Part shown: positions 25,536-32,099 of the stretch, piece by piece
How the letters are laid out: each line of letters opens with the position of its first letter
Position numbering within the stretch: position 1 is the stretch's first letter
From: Chthonomonadaceae bacterium
GTDB lineage: Bacteria > Armatimonadota > Chthonomonadetes > Chthonomonadales > Chthonomonadaceae
Reading direction: 5' to 3'
DNA length: 43,809 bases
Assembly (NCBI GenBank): GCA_025054835.1
Contig: JANWZQ010000165.1
Location: forward strand, 1 to 43,809
Translations under genes and position numbers: made by a program
Notes under the pieces: model-generated
The model's input: the letters and a program-made list of their open reading frames with translations, nothing else
What the model was told of the DNA's origin: nothing
The model's database searches: none

Positions 25536-26174
25536 ATGAATGCGGCTGCCCTGCCCACGCTCTGGGCTAACTGCGTTGAGCGCCTCAAAGATCGGGTCAA
25601 CAATCGCTCATTCTGGGAAGCGATCGAGGCCACGCAACCCATCACGATTGAAGACAGCACTCTGATTATCGGCTTGGACGCATTGAACTTCAATCTTGCC
25701 AGCCATATCCAGCAAACGGCCACGATGCACGCGGTCAACGAAACCGTTCGCGAGGTGTTCCAACAACCCCTGCAGGTCCGCCTGATTGAGGGAACCACGC
25801 TGGCCGACTGGGAGATGCTCAAAGAGCGTGAGGCGCAGCTGGCTGCCTCCAGACAGCAGTCCGAGGTACGTCCGGCTCCCGTAGATGTCCATGCGGACTC
25901 CTGGGATGCTCTGTACGATCAGATCGCCCGGCTCTACGCTACCACTCCCTATCGCTCCCTGCCTCAGGGGAAAGCGCGCTACGCCAATGAGGCACTCTAC
26001 ACGCTGGTCGAGGCGATGGACACACTCTACCCGGCAGATGCCGACGAGATGACAGAGCGCAGTCTGGCCCGGATCCTGGATCGCATCGCTGGCGCCTCGG
26101 AAATCCCCGCATCGGTGCTCGCTTTCGAGTTGGAACGCCTGCGCGCATGGCGCAAATCCGAGGCAGGCGGGTAA
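25536..26174 (+). CDS. Standalone protein with DnaA domain I-like N-terminus
   Basis: Unknown function, 212 residues. Residues about 8-90 (LWANCVERLKDRVNNRSFWE onward, then IEDSTLIIGLDALNFNL and VNETVREVFQQPLQVRLIEG) follow the pattern of the DnaA N-terminal domain I (DnaA_N). Domain I in the initiator binds DnaB helicase and regulators. There is no AAA+ module and no domain IV helix-turn-helix. After a Glu/Gln-rich linker (about 95-125) residues 125-212 form a predicted all-helical domain with SWDALYDQIARLYATTPYRS. No membrane segment is present. AAGGAG is nine bases before the ATG. The gene has its own consensus promoter and an attenuator-like leader. It could be a replication regulator or an unrelated KH-like fold; the assignment rests on pattern only. 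Confidence 0.6.
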   Translation: MNAAALPTLWANCVERLKDRVNNRSFWEAIEATQPITIEDSTLIIGLDALNFNLASHIQQTATMHAVNETVREVFQQPLQVRLIEGTTLADWEMLKEREAQLAASRQQSEVRPAPVDVHADSWDALYDQIARLYATTPYRSLPQGKARYANEALYTLVEAMDTLYPADADEMTERSLARILDRIAGASEIPASVLAFELERLRAWRKSEAGG

Positions 26175-26265: not shown

Positions 26266-28161
26266 TCAGGACTGGTAGATGCGCCGGTGATACACCCACC
26301 ACTCCACCATGAGAATGATCAGGGCAGCTGTCACGACAACAGGGAGCCATGAGCGGCGATAGATGACCCGGGCGCCCCGGTGTTCCGCTGCAGTGGATGG
26401 GAGGGCAGAGTGAGGGCGCGGGCGCAGATCGGACTCCTGCTCGTCTGTCAGGTTCACCGCGACCATGTGCGAGACTCCTGCTCCTGCGATCTGATAGAAC
26501 CCGATCCGCTCGACGTGGTCGAGCACGAAACGCCCCGGCGCAACGGGGTGCAGCGTGCGGCGAGATCCGTCGGGCGCGGTCACCGTCAGTGGGGATCCAG
26601 CGGATCGCAGGGACAGGGAAACTGGCTTCCCGGCGACGGCCTGCGTCCGGTCGTACGCGTCGTTACCGGTACCCAGCCACCGTACACAGTTGGCAATCAG
26701 GATCGGGAACGCCACACGCAGGGCGAACGACGGCGTGTCCAGCGCAAATCCGAGGAATATCGTACGTGTGTCTCCATGCTCTCCAACTGCGATCAGAGTT
26801 CCTGACGTGGCGGTTGCGATTTCCTGCCCCCATGCGCGCGGAGTGGCCTGCAGGGCCCGATCGAAGCGCTCCTGCCCGAGGTCCACAAAGCGCAACACCG
26901 GATGGTCGCGCTCCCAGTCGATGGGCATAACGTTCCGCTCCTCGCCGGTCACGCTGACCGGAGCCTGTTCGGAGTGACAGTGCAGGAAAAGGTAGTTGCC
27001 CGGAGGCAAATGTGCGGGCGCAACTTCCGAGAACACAACCACGTCGTACTCGTCTGCCTGTTCGGGCACAAAGGAGGCCGCCGTGCTCAATGCAACCGAG
27101 GGATCCACGCGTAGAGCATTCTCCAGAAACAGGTTCTCTCGCCCGATCAGAAGCGTTTTCAGGCGTCTGATCGGGTTCAGGACCAGCATGGCGTGGTTGT
27201 CGACTGCCAGGTCATCGCGCAGGTCGAGATATGCCCGGACCCGCACCGGTCGATCTGGATCAGGCAGGTCATACGTGAAGGTTCTGGTGGCGTGAGGCGC
27301 GAGAACCGTCTCCGCAGCATCCACCAGACGCTCTTCCACAGAGATCTCCTGTGTGAACGTGCGCGGTTTTTCGCCGAAGTTACGGGTTACCACCAGTAGC
27401 TGCACTACACCGGCTTTGCTCGATGAACGCCGGTAGTCGATTGTGACGATACCGACGTTCTCGCTGCGTCGGCCTATTGGGTGAAACACGATCTCCGCAG
27501 AGTCCCGACTCAGGCCTGTGCGGCTGGATGACGCTTCTGACACTGCCGGGAGTCCATCCCCGTCAGAGAACACTTCGATCCTTCCCGGAACGCCGTTGCG
27601 TTCCGCAGCGACAAGATCCGAGGAGAAACGCAGGGCCTCACGCAGGTTCCCCGGAGTATCCTGTGGCCTGAGAGATCGTACGGCCTGCCGCAATGTGACG
27701 CGATCGGCGGTGAATCCTGTCAACACTTCCGGACGCCATCCGCAGGCGATGATCATCATGCGGTCGCCGGGGCCGAGGCGATCGATCCGCTCCAGCGCGT
27801 TGCGTTTCGCAACTTCCAGACGCGAGGGAGTTACGTCGGTCGCCTGCATGGAAGCCGAGACATCGATCAGGATCGCAATGTTACGGCCTCTGGTTCCGGT
27901 GACGCGCACGTAAGGACCAGAAATCGCAAGCACCAGCAGCGCGGCCAGAAGCAGTTGCAGCCAGAGCAGCAGGTGCCGGCGCAGTTTCTGAAAGGGCGTG
28001 TGGGCCTGCACGTCCTGAAGGACCTGCTCCCAGAGGAGGGTCGAAGAGATCACCACTTCCCGGCGCTTCTTCTTCAACAGGTATAACAGGAGGATCAGGA
28101 CACCCGGAGGAAGGAACCAGAGCAGATACAGCGGGGAGGAAAGGCCCATCGAGTGGCTCAC
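26266..28161 (-). CDS. BatA-type membrane protein with VWA domain
   Basis: Membrane-anchored von Willebrand factor A protein of 631 residues. The N-terminus is the BatA domain: two hydrophobic helices (LYLLWFLPPGVLILLLYLL and LLLWLQLLLAALLVLAI) with a basic KKKRRE stretch between them. A VWA domain follows with MIDAS D100-V-S102-A-S104 in LIDVSASM. A beta-rich central region (about 235-330), a further alpha/beta region and one C-terminal helix (VVVTAALIILMVEWWVY, about 605-625) complete it. Such proteins accompany MoxR ATPases in Bacteroides aerotolerance-like loci, but no MoxR is seen here. The GTG at 28161 overlaps the upstream stop codon (GTGA); ATG at 28149 is possible. It is the last gene of the histidine operon, so a link with the two coiled-coil proteins before it is likely. 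Confidence 0.82.
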   Translation of the reverse strand: MSHSMGLSSPLYLLWFLPPGVLILLLYLLKKKRREVVISSTLLWEQVLQDVQAHTPFQKLRRHLLLWLQLLLAALLVLAISGPYVRVTGTRGRNIAILIDVSASMQATDVTPSRLEVAKRNALERIDRLGPGDRMMIIACGWRPEVLTGFTADRVTLRQAVRSLRPQDTPGNLREALRFSSDLVAAERNGVPGRIEVFSDGDGLPAVSEASSSRTGLSRDSAEIVFHPIGRRSENVGIVTIDYRRSSSKAGVVQLLVVTRNFGEKPRTFTQEISVEERLVDAAETVLAPHATRTFTYDLPDPDRPVRVRAYLDLRDDLAVDNHAMLVLNPIRRLKTLLIGRENLFLENALRVDPSVALSTAASFVPEQADEYDVVVFSEVAPAHLPPGNYLFLHCHSEQAPVSVTGEERNVMPIDWERDHPVLRFVDLGQERFDRALQATPRAWGQEIATATSGTLIAVGEHGDTRTIFLGFALDTPSFALRVAFPILIANCVRWLGTGNDAYDRTQAVAGKPVSLSLRSAGSPLTVTAPDGSRRTLHPVAPGRFVLDHVERIGFYQIAGAGVSHMVAVNLTDEQESDLRPRPHSALPSTAAEHRGARVIYRRSWLPVVVTAALIILMVEWWVYHRRIYQS

Positions 28162-28481
28162 GGGAGACCAATGCGTTGTGTCGCTTCGTCAACAGAGGTA
28201 TGTGCTCTCTGCCGTTCCAGTTGTGCGACACGCGCTTCCAGACGTTGAAGTGCCGTATCGAAGCTCAGGTCGTACTGTAGCGTGGTATCTCGCAGGGATT
28301 GGATCTCGGCGCGCAGGGCGTCTAGCTGTGCCTGCAATTGCCGCTCGGCAGTCGCGTTGCGCTGCAACTGGAGTTCTTCCATCTTGCGCCGGTGATACGT
28401 CCAGATGGCGAAAGATGGCAGGAAGATGAACAGGCCGCCAAACATAAGAAGGAAAATTGCAAGGATAGCCCATGGCAGCAT
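28158..28481 (-). CDS. Small membrane-anchored coiled-coil protein (PspB-like topology), paralogue 2
   Basis: Unknown function, 107 residues. One N-terminal transmembrane helix (AILAIFLLMFGGLFIFLPSF) is followed by a basic turn (YHRRKMEELQLQR). A heptad-patterned coiled coil then runs to about residue 95. The topology resembles the phage-shock protein PspB, but I would not call it PspB. The segment SLRDTTLQYDLSFDTALQRL is shared almost exactly with the next gene upstream. AGAGGAAG lies seven bases before the ATG at 28481. It overlaps the BatA/VWA start by four bases and begins 17 bases after the stop of its paralogue. The three form a compact membrane cassette. Confidence 0.75.
   Translation of the reverse strand: MLPWAILAIFLLMFGGLFIFLPSFAIWTYHRRKMEELQLQRNATAERQLQAQLDALRAEIQSLRDTTLQYDLSFDTALQRLEARVAQLERQRAHTSVDEATQRIGLP
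28240..28277. repeat. 38-base perfect direct repeat, copy A
   Basis: This stretch is identical to 28581-28618. It encodes the conserved part of the coiled coil in the two paralogous small membrane proteins. The surrounding codons have diverged, which points to duplication followed by gene conversion or strong constraint. Confidence 0.9.
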
Positions 28482-28498
28482 GATGACGCTTCCTCTGA

Positions 28499-28810
28499 TT
28501 ATTCGTTCCGCGTGAGTGGAACGATGGGCTCCTCTGCAACGCTCCGGGAGCGTCGCTCCAGTTGCGTGACCCGTGCCTCGAGACGTTGAAGTGCCGTATC
28601 GAAGCTCAGGTCGTACTGCAACGCGGTATCCCTCAGGGACTGGACTTCGGCCCGGAGTTGTTCTACTGTTTCCCGGAGGTTGGTGTCCTGGTGCTGACGC
28701 AGTCTCAACTGCAGCTCCAGCATCTTCTGCCGATGCCGGGTGAGGATCGCAACGATCGGGATGCTAAAAGCGCCCAGGATTGCGGCAAGACCGACCAGTG
28801 CTTCTATCAT
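28499..28810 (-). CDS. Small membrane-anchored coiled-coil protein, paralogue 1
   Basis: Unknown function, about 103 residues. It has an N-terminal transmembrane helix (ALVGLAAILGAFSIPIVAIL), a basic turn (RHRQKMLELQLRLRQ) and a coiled coil ending SLRDTALQYDLSFDTALQRL-EARVTQLE. The same architecture and the same C-terminal motif occur in the gene downstream. I chose the ATG at 28810 (AGAGG five bases upstream). The ATG at 28825 would add five residues and lies 16 bases after the hisA stop. Its position directly behind hisA and ahead of the BatA/VWA gene suggests that it is transcribed from the his promoter. A role as a scaffold or sensor in the membrane is a guess. Confidence 0.72.
   Translation of the reverse strand: MIEALVGLAAILGAFSIPIVAILTRHRQKMLELQLRLRQHQDTNLRETVEQLRAEVQSLRDTALQYDLSFDTALQRLEARVTQLERRSRSVAEEPIVPLTRNE
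28581..28618. repeat. 38-base perfect direct repeat, copy B
   Basis: Identical to 28240-28277; it lies in the upstream paralogue and is offset by 341 bases. Confidence 0.9.
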
Positions 28811-28841
28811 TGTGGCCTCTGTCATCAGGGGAATCTCTCTT

Positions 28842-29594
28842 TCAACCGGCTGATCGGGCTGCACGGGCCAGCAGATCCGGCAGGGTGAGAGTGCCCGCGT
28901 AGAGCGCCTTACCAACAATAATTCCCTCCAGGTTAGGAGCACCGGTCGCACGCAGGTGAAGCAGGGCATCCAGATCCTGCAGGGAAGTCACTCCCCCGGA
29001 GGCGATCACAGGTATCTGCGGTACGGCGGCAGTGATCTGGGCAACCGCGGTCAGGTTCACACCCTGCAGCATGCCATCACGGGCGATATCTGTGAAGATG
29101 AAGCGTTGCGCGCCGAGCCGGGCCATACGCTGCACGAACGTGACCGCGTTCTCGTCGGTGCTCTGCACCCACCCCTGAATGGCAACCCGGCCATCCCGCG
29201 CATCCACACCTACCGCCACACGGTCGCCGTACATCAAGAACAGGCTCTCGGCCAGAGCCGGATCATTGGCGACTGCAGTGCCAGCAATCACCCGGCTGAC
29301 ACCAATTCGCAACATGCGCTCGACAATCTCCGCGTTGCGTACGCCTCCGCCAAACTGCACTGGCAGGCCGGTCTGCCGGAGGATCTGCCGCAGAACGTCC
29401 AGGTTCTGCGTGTTCGGGCTGCCCATCCGTGCGCCGTCAAGGTCGACGACATGCAACCACTGCGCCCCCTCTTGCTTCCAGCGCTTTGCGACTTTCACCG
29501 GGTCTTCCGAGTAGGTTGTGATCTGTTCGAACTGCCCCTGGCTGAGCCGCACACACTTGCCACCTTTGATGTCGATTGCCGGGTAGATGTCCAT
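28842..29594 (-). CDS. hisA: Phosphoribosylformimino-5-aminoimidazole carboxamide ribotide isomerase
   Basis: Amadori isomerase converting ProFAR to PRFAR in histidine synthesis. It has 250 residues in a two-fold TIM barrel. The general base/acid pair is visible as D8 in PAIDIKGG and D131 in VGVDARDG, each at the end of its half-barrel. Phosphate loops include FGGGVRN and IASGGVTSLQD. In some lineages PriA replaces HisA and TrpF; the sequence alone does not exclude dual specificity. It lies 53 bases after hisH and is followed closely by the paralogous coiled-coil genes. Confidence 0.95.
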   Translation of the reverse strand: MDIYPAIDIKGGKCVRLSQGQFEQITTYSEDPVKVAKRWKQEGAQWLHVVDLDGARMGSPNTQNLDVLRQILRQTGLPVQFGGGVRNAEIVERMLRIGVSRVIAGTAVANDPALAESLFLMYGDRVAVGVDARDGRVAIQGWVQSTDENAVTFVQRMARLGAQRFIFTDIARDGMLQGVNLTAVAQITAAVPQIPVIASGGVTSLQDLDALLHLRATGAPNLEGIIVGKALYAGTLTLPDLLARAARSAG

Positions 29595-29647: not shown

Positions 29648-30283
29648 TCAATTCCAGCGGACGAAGTTTCGCAGGATTTGCAGGCCGACGGTGCCACTTT
29701 TCTCCGGGTGGAACTGTGTGGCTGCGATGTGATCGATCTCAATAGCACAGCAGAAGTCCACCCCGTAGTCGGTGGTTGCAGCAACCACGGACGCGTCAGA
29801 GGGTTCCGGGTAGTAGGAGTGTACGAAGTAGACCCGGGCGCCCTCTTCGATATCACGAAACAGGCGTGATGAGCGGGGCAGGTGCAACGCATTCCACCCG
29901 ATGTGCGGTACCTTCAGGGGCATGCCGTCCGGGAGGGTGGGCGGAGGGGCGTTTTCGAAGAAACGGACGACATGACCGGGGATCAGGCCAAGCCCCCGGG
30001 CTCCGCCCATTTCTGTGCTGGACTCGAACAGCAACTGCAGGCCAAGGCAGATGCCGAGGAAAGGCTTGCCCGCGGCAATAGCCTGCAATACAGCGTCACG
30101 CAGGCCACTCTGCTCGAGGTTGGCCATAGCGGCGCAGAACGCGCCAACGCCGGGCAGAACGATCTGGTCCGCCCGTGCCACGACGTGCGGATCGCTGGTG
30201 ATGATCGGGTGGCCGCCCACGCGCAACAGGGCTTTCTCCACGCTGCGCAGGTTGGCCATTCCGTAGTCAACGATGGCAATCAT
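29648..30283 (-). CDS. hisH: Imidazole glycerol phosphate synthase, glutaminase subunit
   Basis: Class I glutamine amidotransferase that supplies ammonia to HisF for imidazole-glycerol phosphate formation. It has 211 residues. The catalytic triad is visible: C79 in LGICLGLQLL, H192 and E194 in QFHPEKS. The oxyanion-related LPGVGAF is at 43-49. The ATG at 30283 overlaps the stop codon of the preceding small membrane protein (ATGA), so translation is coupled. Its partner hisF is not in the window; hisA follows after 53 bases. Confidence 0.95.
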   Translation of the reverse strand: MIAIVDYGMANLRSVEKALLRVGGHPIITSDPHVVARADQIVLPGVGAFCAAMANLEQSGLRDAVLQAIAAGKPFLGICLGLQLLFESSTEMGGARGLGLIPGHVVRFFENAPPPTLPDGMPLKVPHIGWNALHLPRSSRLFRDIEEGARVYFVHSYYPEPSDASVVAATTDYGVDFCCAIEIDHIAATQFHPEKSGTVGLQILRNFVRWN

Positions 30284-30582
30284 GGTGTTCGTCTGAGTTC
30301 CCTGACCGGTCTGGCAGGCGGTTCTTCTGGTTCGATGATTGGCCCGGGGATGACAGAACGCACCCCGGGTTGTGTGACCGGTTGTTCGAACTGGTTCCGG
30401 ATGCGACTCAGATTGCGAGATACCTGCCGCGCGTTGGCCCGGGTCACATCCATAGCCCATCGCAGGGAACCGACCAGGGCAACAAGCAGCAGCGCAACAA
30501 GAGCCAGTCGGAACAGGATGCCGGACTCGCGCACGGGCGAACGTCGGGACGGTCCATCACATGACCTGCTCGGTGTAGCCAT
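30280..30582 (-). CDS. Small single-pass membrane protein of unknown function
   Basis: 100 residues. A basic Ser/Arg-rich cytoplasmic start (MATPSRSCDGPSRRSPVRES) precedes one transmembrane helix (LFRLALVALLLVALVGSLRW, about 24-44). A polar, Pro/Arg-rich tail (QPGVRSVIPGPIIEPEEPPA) follows and is predicted to lie outside the cytoplasm. AGGAGG is six bases before the ATG at 30582; the longer frame to 30615 is not needed. It lies between hisD (72 bases away) and hisH (4-base overlap). I recognise no domain and have no functional call. It is a further membrane protein inserted in the histidine operon. Confidence 0.68.
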   Translation of the reverse strand: MATPSRSCDGPSRRSPVRESGILFRLALVALLLVALVGSLRWAMDVTRANARQVSRNLSRIRNQFEQPVTQPGVRSVIPGPIIEPEEPPARPVRELRRTP

Positions 30583-30654
30583 AGGGTGCCTCCTGAAAAG
30601 CCTGTTCGAGTTCACCTTTCAGGAGCAGAATGCTTCACAGAGGGCGCACGCATG

Positions 30655-31944
30655 CTAGTTGCCCGTTGTCTGCCGGGCTGTCACAGCAGTGGCGTGAGCG
30701 TCGAACCCTTCGGCACGAGCGAAAGTTTCCAGAAGGGGCGCGACTGTGCCGAGTGCCTCCCGGGTGTAGTAGATGATGCTGCTCTTCTTCAAGAAGGTAT
30801 CCACATGCAAAGGGGAAGCGAAGCGCGCCGTACCGCTGGTCGGCAGGGTATGGCTCGGGCCGGCCAGGTAGTCCCCGAGTGTCTGCGGGGTGTACTCTCC
30901 CAGCAGGATCGCACCGGCATTGCGCACCCGCCCCAGAACGCTCAGAGGATCGCGCACCATGAGGGACAGATGCTCCGGCGCGCAGATGTTGGCCAGATCC
31001 AGGGCCTGCTCCAGCGATGTCGTGATCAGGATCACGCCGTTGTTGTTCAACGACTGCCGCAGGATCTCGCGACGCGAGAGCAGCGACAGCTGCCGCTCGA
31101 TCGCATCCTGCACGCGTGCTGCGAGCGACTCCGATGGCGTAATCAGGAACGCTGCGGCCTCTGTGTCGTGCTCGGCCTGAGTCAGCAAATCCATTGCGAC
31201 AAAGACCGGGTTGGCGGCATCGTCAGCAACCACGCACACCTCGCTGGGACCGGCGAGCATGTCCATGTCCGTTATGCCCCAGAGCAGCTTTTTGGCGAGG
31301 TTCACGTAGATGTTGCCTGGCCCGACGATCTTATCTACCGCAGGGATTGTCTGCGTGCCGAAAGCCAGTGCCGCGATTGCCTGCGCTCCGCCCACTGCGA
31401 AAACGCGTTGAACCCCCGCGACCTGCGCCGCGTAGAGCACCAGCGGATGTACAGTGCCGTCATGTCGGGCGGGAGTGCAGAGCACAATCTCAGGAACACC
31501 GGCGACCCGGGCCGGAACAGCCGTCATCAGCACGGTGCTCGGGTAAACCGCAGTGCCTCCGGGAGCGTAGACACCAACGCGGTCCAGTGGCCGCACCAGT
31601 TGCCCGACGATGCACCCGGACCGGGTGTCCATCCACCCCGTGCGCTTCTGCTTTTCATGGAACTGTGTGATGTTCCCGGCTGCTGTGAGCACGGCCTCAC
31701 GGAGTTCGGTCGGGATCTGTGCCTCCGCTTCCAGCCAGAGCGTGCGCGGTACTTCCAGCGCAGTGAGGTTCGGCGCATCGAAGCGCCGGGATAACTCCAG
31801 CAGGGCCGCGTCGCCGCGTGCGCGAACATCCGCGATGATGTCACGCACAATCGCTTCGGCCTGCGGATTGTCCTGCAGGTTCGTACGGCGTACTGCCGCA
31901 TGCGCGGCAGCGTACCCTTCCTGCGCAACACGCAGAATGCGCAT
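30655..31944 (-). CDS. hisD: Histidinol dehydrogenase
   Basis: NAD-dependent zinc enzyme that oxidises histidinol to histidine in two steps. It has 429 residues, the normal length. Recognisable segments are VGVYAPGGTAVYPST, the signature VDKIVGPGNIYVNLAK, AGPSEVCVVAD, LTQAEHDTEA with Zn/catalytic Gln and His, ICAPEHLSLM and GPSHTLPTSGTARF. AGGAAAG lies seven bases before the ATG at 31944. It is the first gene of the seven-gene minus-strand operon, read from a near-consensus promoter about 120 bases upstream. The leader has a hairpin whose arm touches the ribosome-binding site. No His-codon-rich leader peptide is seen. Confidence 0.96.
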   Translation of the reverse strand: MRILRVAQEGYAAAHAAVRRTNLQDNPQAEAIVRDIIADVRARGDAALLELSRRFDAPNLTALEVPRTLWLEAEAQIPTELREAVLTAAGNITQFHEKQKRTGWMDTRSGCIVGQLVRPLDRVGVYAPGGTAVYPSTVLMTAVPARVAGVPEIVLCTPARHDGTVHPLVLYAAQVAGVQRVFAVGGAQAIAALAFGTQTIPAVDKIVGPGNIYVNLAKKLLWGITDMDMLAGPSEVCVVADDAANPVFVAMDLLTQAEHDTEAAAFLITPSESLAARVQDAIERQLSLLSRREILRQSLNNNGVILITTSLEQALDLANICAPEHLSLMVRDPLSVLGRVRNAGAILLGEYTPQTLGDYLAGPSHTLPTSGTARFASPLHVDTFLKKSSIIYYTREALGTVAPLLETFARAEGFDAHATAVTARQTTGN

Positions 31945-32069: not shown

Positions 32070-32099
32070 ATTATACGTTGCGCGTCGGCAGGAAGTCAA
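32070..32099 (-). promoter_or_regulatory. Promoter of the his operon
   Basis: On the minus strand TTGACT (32094-32099), an 18-base spacer and a perfect TATAAT (32070-32075). Transcription would begin near 32063, giving an approximately 120-base leader before hisD. Confidence 0.8.

Follow-up and report, generated by a model that had tools for sequence, protein, structure and literature searches.

An uncharacterised family of membrane coiled-coil proteins, encoded in tandem and linked with the histidine operon across Armatimonadota

At the end of a histidine operon of a Chthonomonadaceae bacterium, two small related membrane proteins are encoded directly before a BatA/VWA protein, which raises the question of what these small proteins do and whether the three proteins belong together. 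The window, i.e. the whole stretch of 43,809 nucleotides that was analysed, is one whole contig; the genome it belongs to has 3.7 Mb and is assigned to Armatimonadota. Its minus strand carries, in this order, hisD (30655-31944, TIGR00069), which is the first his gene of the run, a 111-aa TM ORF, hisH (29648-30283, TIGR01855), hisA (28842-29594, TIGR00007), the small genes A (28499-28825, 108 aa) and B (28158-28481, 107 aa) and the BatA/VWA gene (26266-28161, 631 aa); the three his assignments are all above cut-off. The gaps are 16 nt between hisA and A, 17 nt between A and B and -4 nt between B and the VWA gene, whose start lies over the stop of B in a GTGA overlap. The BatA/VWA protein displays N-terminal hydrophobic segments, a VWA domain with the MIDAS motif DxSxS (read from the sequence as DVSAS) and a C-terminal hydrophobic segment; its Pfam matches to VWA_2 (PF13519, 1.1e-17) and BatA (PF07584, 1.6e-12) are both over cut-off, besides a DUF7408 match (3.7e-9). 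Neither MoxR nor DUF58 genes were found beside it. All this corroborates the arrangement given in the preliminary description, that is two paralogous TM/coiled-coil proteins behind his genes and before a BatA/VWA protein devoid of an adjacent MoxR, including the open reading frames and the overlap.

Some other features of the window should be mentioned. No hisB was found on the contig, and the 111-aa single-TM ORF (30280-30615, minus strand) occupies the place between hisD and hisH that hisB takes in relatives; no other locus of the set has a match to this ORF. A promoter-like site (TTGACT-18-TATAAT, 11/12; 32070-32099, minus strand) upstream of hisD is a possible but weak candidate for the operon promoter, one such site being found vs 1.1 expected by chance. 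A 212-aa protein (25536-26174, plus strand), convergent with the VWA gene, weakly resembles the N-terminal domain of DnaA (PF11638, 0.0069; TIGR00362, 0.0031), with both scores far below cut-off.

A and B each possess one N-terminal hydrophobic stretch followed by a basic turn, RHRQKM in A and YHRRKM in B, and, after this turn, a coiled coil with the end SLRDT(A/T)LQYDLSFDTALQRLEARV; both turns and the nearly identical ends are present as first described. The AF2 model of A is one continuous helix from residue 2 to residue 97 (pLDDT 93), a single-chain model that is silent on oligomers. Among 118 members of the family, the 19-residue hydrophobic maximum is over 1.6 in 90%, and K and R average 3.9 after the TM helix vs 0.02 before it, with more after than before in 118/118 members. 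Since these residues follow rather than precede the helix, the positive-inside rule predicts that the N-terminus is outside and the C-terminus inside. The PspB-like single-TM coiled-coil topology proposed in the preliminary description is therefore supported by these hydrophobicity and charge statistics together with the modelled helix.

The present search, with A as query, identified relatives of the small proteins in 147 of the 291 Armatimonadota genomes, i.e. about half of the phylum. They are encoded in tandem sets of one (26 loci), two (33), three (16), four (3), five (2) or seven copies (1) at 81 loci; some of these are truncated where the contig stops, and frameshifts occur in a few sets. 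The profile and alignment built from the fetched loci yield a consensus with (i) a TM helix ending in IPIvAI.T.H.RKM, (ii) a linker and (iii) the stretch LR.E...LRDT.tQYDLSFD.ALQRLE.RV..LE; His31, Leu64 and Arg65 are nearly invariant. Members of one family, f15, keep the N-terminal signature and have a different end. Purifying selection acts on copies 1, 2 and 3, with dN/dS of about 0.07-0.26. Profile HMM searches of both small proteins, as suggested in the preliminary description, were run with Pfam, NCBIfam and PHROGs; they gave nothing above cut-off and returned coiled-coil noise only, as did a sequence search of the PDB. No relatives were found in viral contigs and plasmids with the small proteins, and other family variants had chance-level matches only to plasmids and phages. 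The wider contig scan beyond Armatimonadota used a single protein as query, so that distant relatives may occur in other phyla; the sole match (L042, Alphaproteobacteria) was rejected as chance, since it covers only a few coiled-coil residues in the N-terminal region of a protein that is secreted and porin-like. Literature searches found no paper naming both Armatimonadetes and phage shock protein, and the combination of Armatimonadetes, histidine biosynthesis and operon led to a metagenomic survey only. The small proteins form a phylum-wide family for which there is no name or domain model and for which we found no paper.

The conserved neighbour of the small genes in the phylum is the his operon and not the VWA gene. 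As scored by tblastn, 56 of the 78 scorable loci, from 36 genera and eight families, have his genes upstream in the same orientation, mostly with short gaps. The genes downstream of the arrays vary by clade: the VWA gene adjoins the small genes in nine of the 81 loci, all in family f1, sucD follows in several genomes of family f2 and rpoB in nine loci of f15. In six of the f15 loci (L192, L194, L197, L198, L199 and L201), the small genes stand directly before rpoB, often after his genes.

The resemblance with PspB (PF06667) deserves a closer look. Like PspB, the small proteins are small, with a short N-terminus, one TM helix, a conserved His where the chain leaves the membrane and, in the cytoplasm, a helix that ends in a stretch similar to R-x-x-x-R-[IV]-x-x-LE. 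However, they are not surrounded by a pspF/pspA/pspC operon and lack the conserved C-terminal P-x-[WF]-[RK] end of PspB, which itself is devoid of a long coiled coil with the LRDT-QYDLSFD core. In Pfam, A and B have no PspB match at E <= 1, none of the 291 Armatimonadota genomes has a PF06667 match over the curated cut-off, and one family member reaches 1.3e-5. The third copy in family f19 (L086:7589-8505 and L083:8825-9739) gives the strongest PspB-like signals within the small-protein family (PF06667, about 6e-4 to 6e-3), also below cut-off. The E. coli PspB reference sequence was 100% identical to an annotated pspB record. With hhalign, the family matched a small PspB set (six sequences) at 88% (18 columns); when the PspB set was deepened to about 30 sequences and a larger family alignment was used, the match dropped to 44% (19 columns), only somewhat better than the 26% of the soluble control XseB. 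XseB, the small subunit of exonuclease VII, has a short helical motif, FExALxxLExxVxxLE, that resembles SFDTALQRLEARVTQLE; XseB has no TM helix, and the likeness, which covers about 19 residues only, is treated as convergent. Overall, the topology and the exit His agree with PspB and the sequence tests fall short of membership, so that there are moderate odds that these proteins work like PspB, and we do not file them as PspB. Duplicates of PspB have been reported in some psp operons (PMC11237479).

Links with envelope stress are indirect. PspA is encoded in 139 of the 147 genomes with the family vs 84 of the 144 genomes without it (223/291 overall), an excess that is confounded by ancestry and concerns a protein that is common anyway. 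In G021 (L067:7064-9633), a small gene lies 85 nt behind genes for a Toastrack DUF4097 + SHOCT protein and a DUF2089 protein, and in G161 (L074:1-3211), two small genes are followed by genes for a 277-aa membrane protein and an SPFH/Band_7 protein. Each of these neighbourhoods was found in one genome. The Toastrack/SHOCT, DUF2089 and SPFH classes have been placed in the PSP network (PMC11237479), and these two neighbourhoods point indirectly to an envelope-stress role of the small genes. No psp genes were recognised beside the arrays, the recognised neighbours being his genes, VWA, sucD, rpoB and others.

The reading that we tentatively prefer is that the small proteins could be membrane-anchored coiled-coil scaffolds involved in envelope integrity, acting as PspB-type partners of PspA, the VWA protein having docked late in f1. 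They would be bitopic inner-membrane proteins with the N-terminus outside, one TM helix and the coiled coil in the cytoplasm, and their genes would have a housekeeping role, being expressed constitutively along with the his operon. Oligomerisation through the coiled coil would give a scaffold at the membrane that helps to maintain the envelope and interacts, in the manner of PspB, with the PspA encoded in the same genomes. The tandem paralogues would be kept as distinct types, occasionally mixed by gene conversion, and would probably enter mixed oligomers. In f1, a lone relative of the BatA/VWA member of MoxR-DUF58-BatA/VWA systems would have docked behind the array, which may serve the VWA protein as a partner in the membrane. 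Against this reading stand the absence of any known domain, the ancestry effect on the PspA excess, the single-genome neighbourhoods and the short profile similarity with PspB; the his linkage is itself silent on envelopes. Such a scaffold would show how bacteria with PspA and without a recognisable PspB equip their membrane-stress response; if the proteins are not PspB-like, the family nevertheless remains an obvious candidate for an initial knockout among the cultivable Armatimonadota.

Somewhat unlikely, the first alternative is a membrane coiled-coil housekeeping protein not related to stress, for instance a division or shape tether of the ZapG/EzrA sort, for which the his operon would be a convenient promoter. 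The small proteins belong to the same topology class as ZapG (PF06295) and, like it and DivIC-FtsB (PF04977), combine a single TM helix with a coiled coil; they also have weak coiled-coil matches to the EzrA and DivIC models, and the several copies and the rpoB linkage in f15 suggest a growth-linked gene. However, there is no profile similarity with either, the comparisons with ZapG and DivIC being at noise (4% and 3%; 10% and 3% as controls on the deeper alignment), and division genes were not recognised beside the arrays. Furthermore, the topology of FtsB/DivIC is opposite to the one predicted for the small proteins.

A more elaborate form of our preferred reading would make the family a phylum-specific replacement of PspB, with sub-specialised paralogues in mixed oligomers serving PspA, expression from his or rpoB operons and a VWA effector captured in one family; taken as a whole, this combination seems improbable.

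The preliminary description had also suggested, as a possibility, a system for envelope stress or complex assembly with the two small subunits as a heterodimeric coiled coil, and had asked whether the three genes travel together. In its strict form, this reading makes A, B and the VWA protein one dedicated complex with an obligate heterodimer. A link between small gene and VWA gene holds in f1 (Chthonomonadaceae-like) and not at the level of the phylum. In f1, the VWA orthologue is present in ten genomes and lies directly behind a small gene in nine of them; in the tenth (G044), the array is at one contig end and the VWA gene near the start of another contig (L046, L131). In G045 (L063), the small gene-VWA unit persists although the his genes are gone. 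This coupling, to which the GTGA overlap in the window may be added, is real yet local to this family. VWA relatives were found in 35 of 61 genomes (E <= 1e-10), and in the phylum most VWA orthologues are away from the small genes or absent: many genomes have just one of the two, both are present on different contigs in several (G037, G179, G187, G155 and G026), and the VWA gene also occurs alone, with neither MoxR nor small genes (e.g. L119 and L120). Homologues scattered without VWA neighbours, which the preliminary description had named as the outcome that would speak against the complex, are thus what the phylum displays, and neither the pair nor the VWA gene is a fixed component. Furthermore, the VWA gene also adjoins single-copy small genes (L052, L054, L055, L063 and L065), which argues against an obligate heterodimer. 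A and B share one heptad register, and their e/g charge scores (A-A, 2 to 4; B-B, 0 to 4; A-B, 2 to 3) favour neither homo- nor hetero-pairing. A dedicated complex of this kind is therefore quite improbable.

In this locus, the VWA gene would rather be a late neighbour in one family. Along its whole length, its product shares about 32-42% identity with related BatA/VWA proteins encoded in the MoxR-DUF58 operons of the phylum. VWA orthologues outside f1 often belong to such operons, which lack the small genes: genes for MoxR (AAA_3) and DUF58 lie beside them in L116, L117, L124, L127 and L129; L121, L123 and L128 look similar on inspection of the sequence alone. The window protein has the BatA N-terminal domain and the VWA domain like the members of these cassettes, but its gene stands alone behind the small genes, illustrating how a lone BatA/VWA gene has settled, outside a MoxR cassette, beside an unrelated membrane gene. 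Since its genome contains four DUF58 matches, all on other contigs, a MoxR system could act on it in trans.

The his linkage might also suggest that the small proteins act on histidine synthesis, for example by tethering HisA or HisH to the membrane or by tuning them, as no neighbour is more conserved than hisA, hisB or hisH. This is very unlikely: f16 (12 scorable genomes) and others keep the small genes although his genes are absent nearby, and the sequences of the small proteins suggest no enzyme partner.

Lastly, the relationship of A and B should be considered. Within the genome, A matches B at 1.7e-22 (61% over 74 residues), far above chance, and the two are true paralogues. A tree of 55 family members of the order, based on only 105 columns and with many forks unresolved, places B apart from A and together with copies that are second or penultimate in the arrays of five other f1 genomes (support 98/88). 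This grouping points to old, separate paralogue types that predate the genera. Their coiled-coil ends are nevertheless covered by a 104-nt direct repeat, 84% identical between the copy in B (28213-28316, minus strand) and the copy in A (28554-28657, minus strand). Inside this repeat, a 38-nt tract is identical in both genes, synonymous sites included, a length that did not arise in 2000 codon shuffles, which puts p at the floor of the test, about 5e-4. Constraint at the protein level alone, with no recombination between copies, might be invoked since the SLRDT-end motif is broadly conserved across loci and codon identity over whole pairs is mostly as expected (a weak excess, with 2/84 pairs at z > 3), but it hardly accounts for this tract and for those of L057 (104 nt), L077 (41 nt) and L045 (32 nt), which are at the same floor. 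Among the 84 paralogue pairs examined, only this longest-tract test was significant, its strongest cases being at the test floor with uncorrected p values. The simplest explanation is gene conversion among the tandem copies, and the near-identical ends would partly reflect it. The identical 104-nt tract between the tandem copies of L057 (L057:9218-9891) is the longest of the set.
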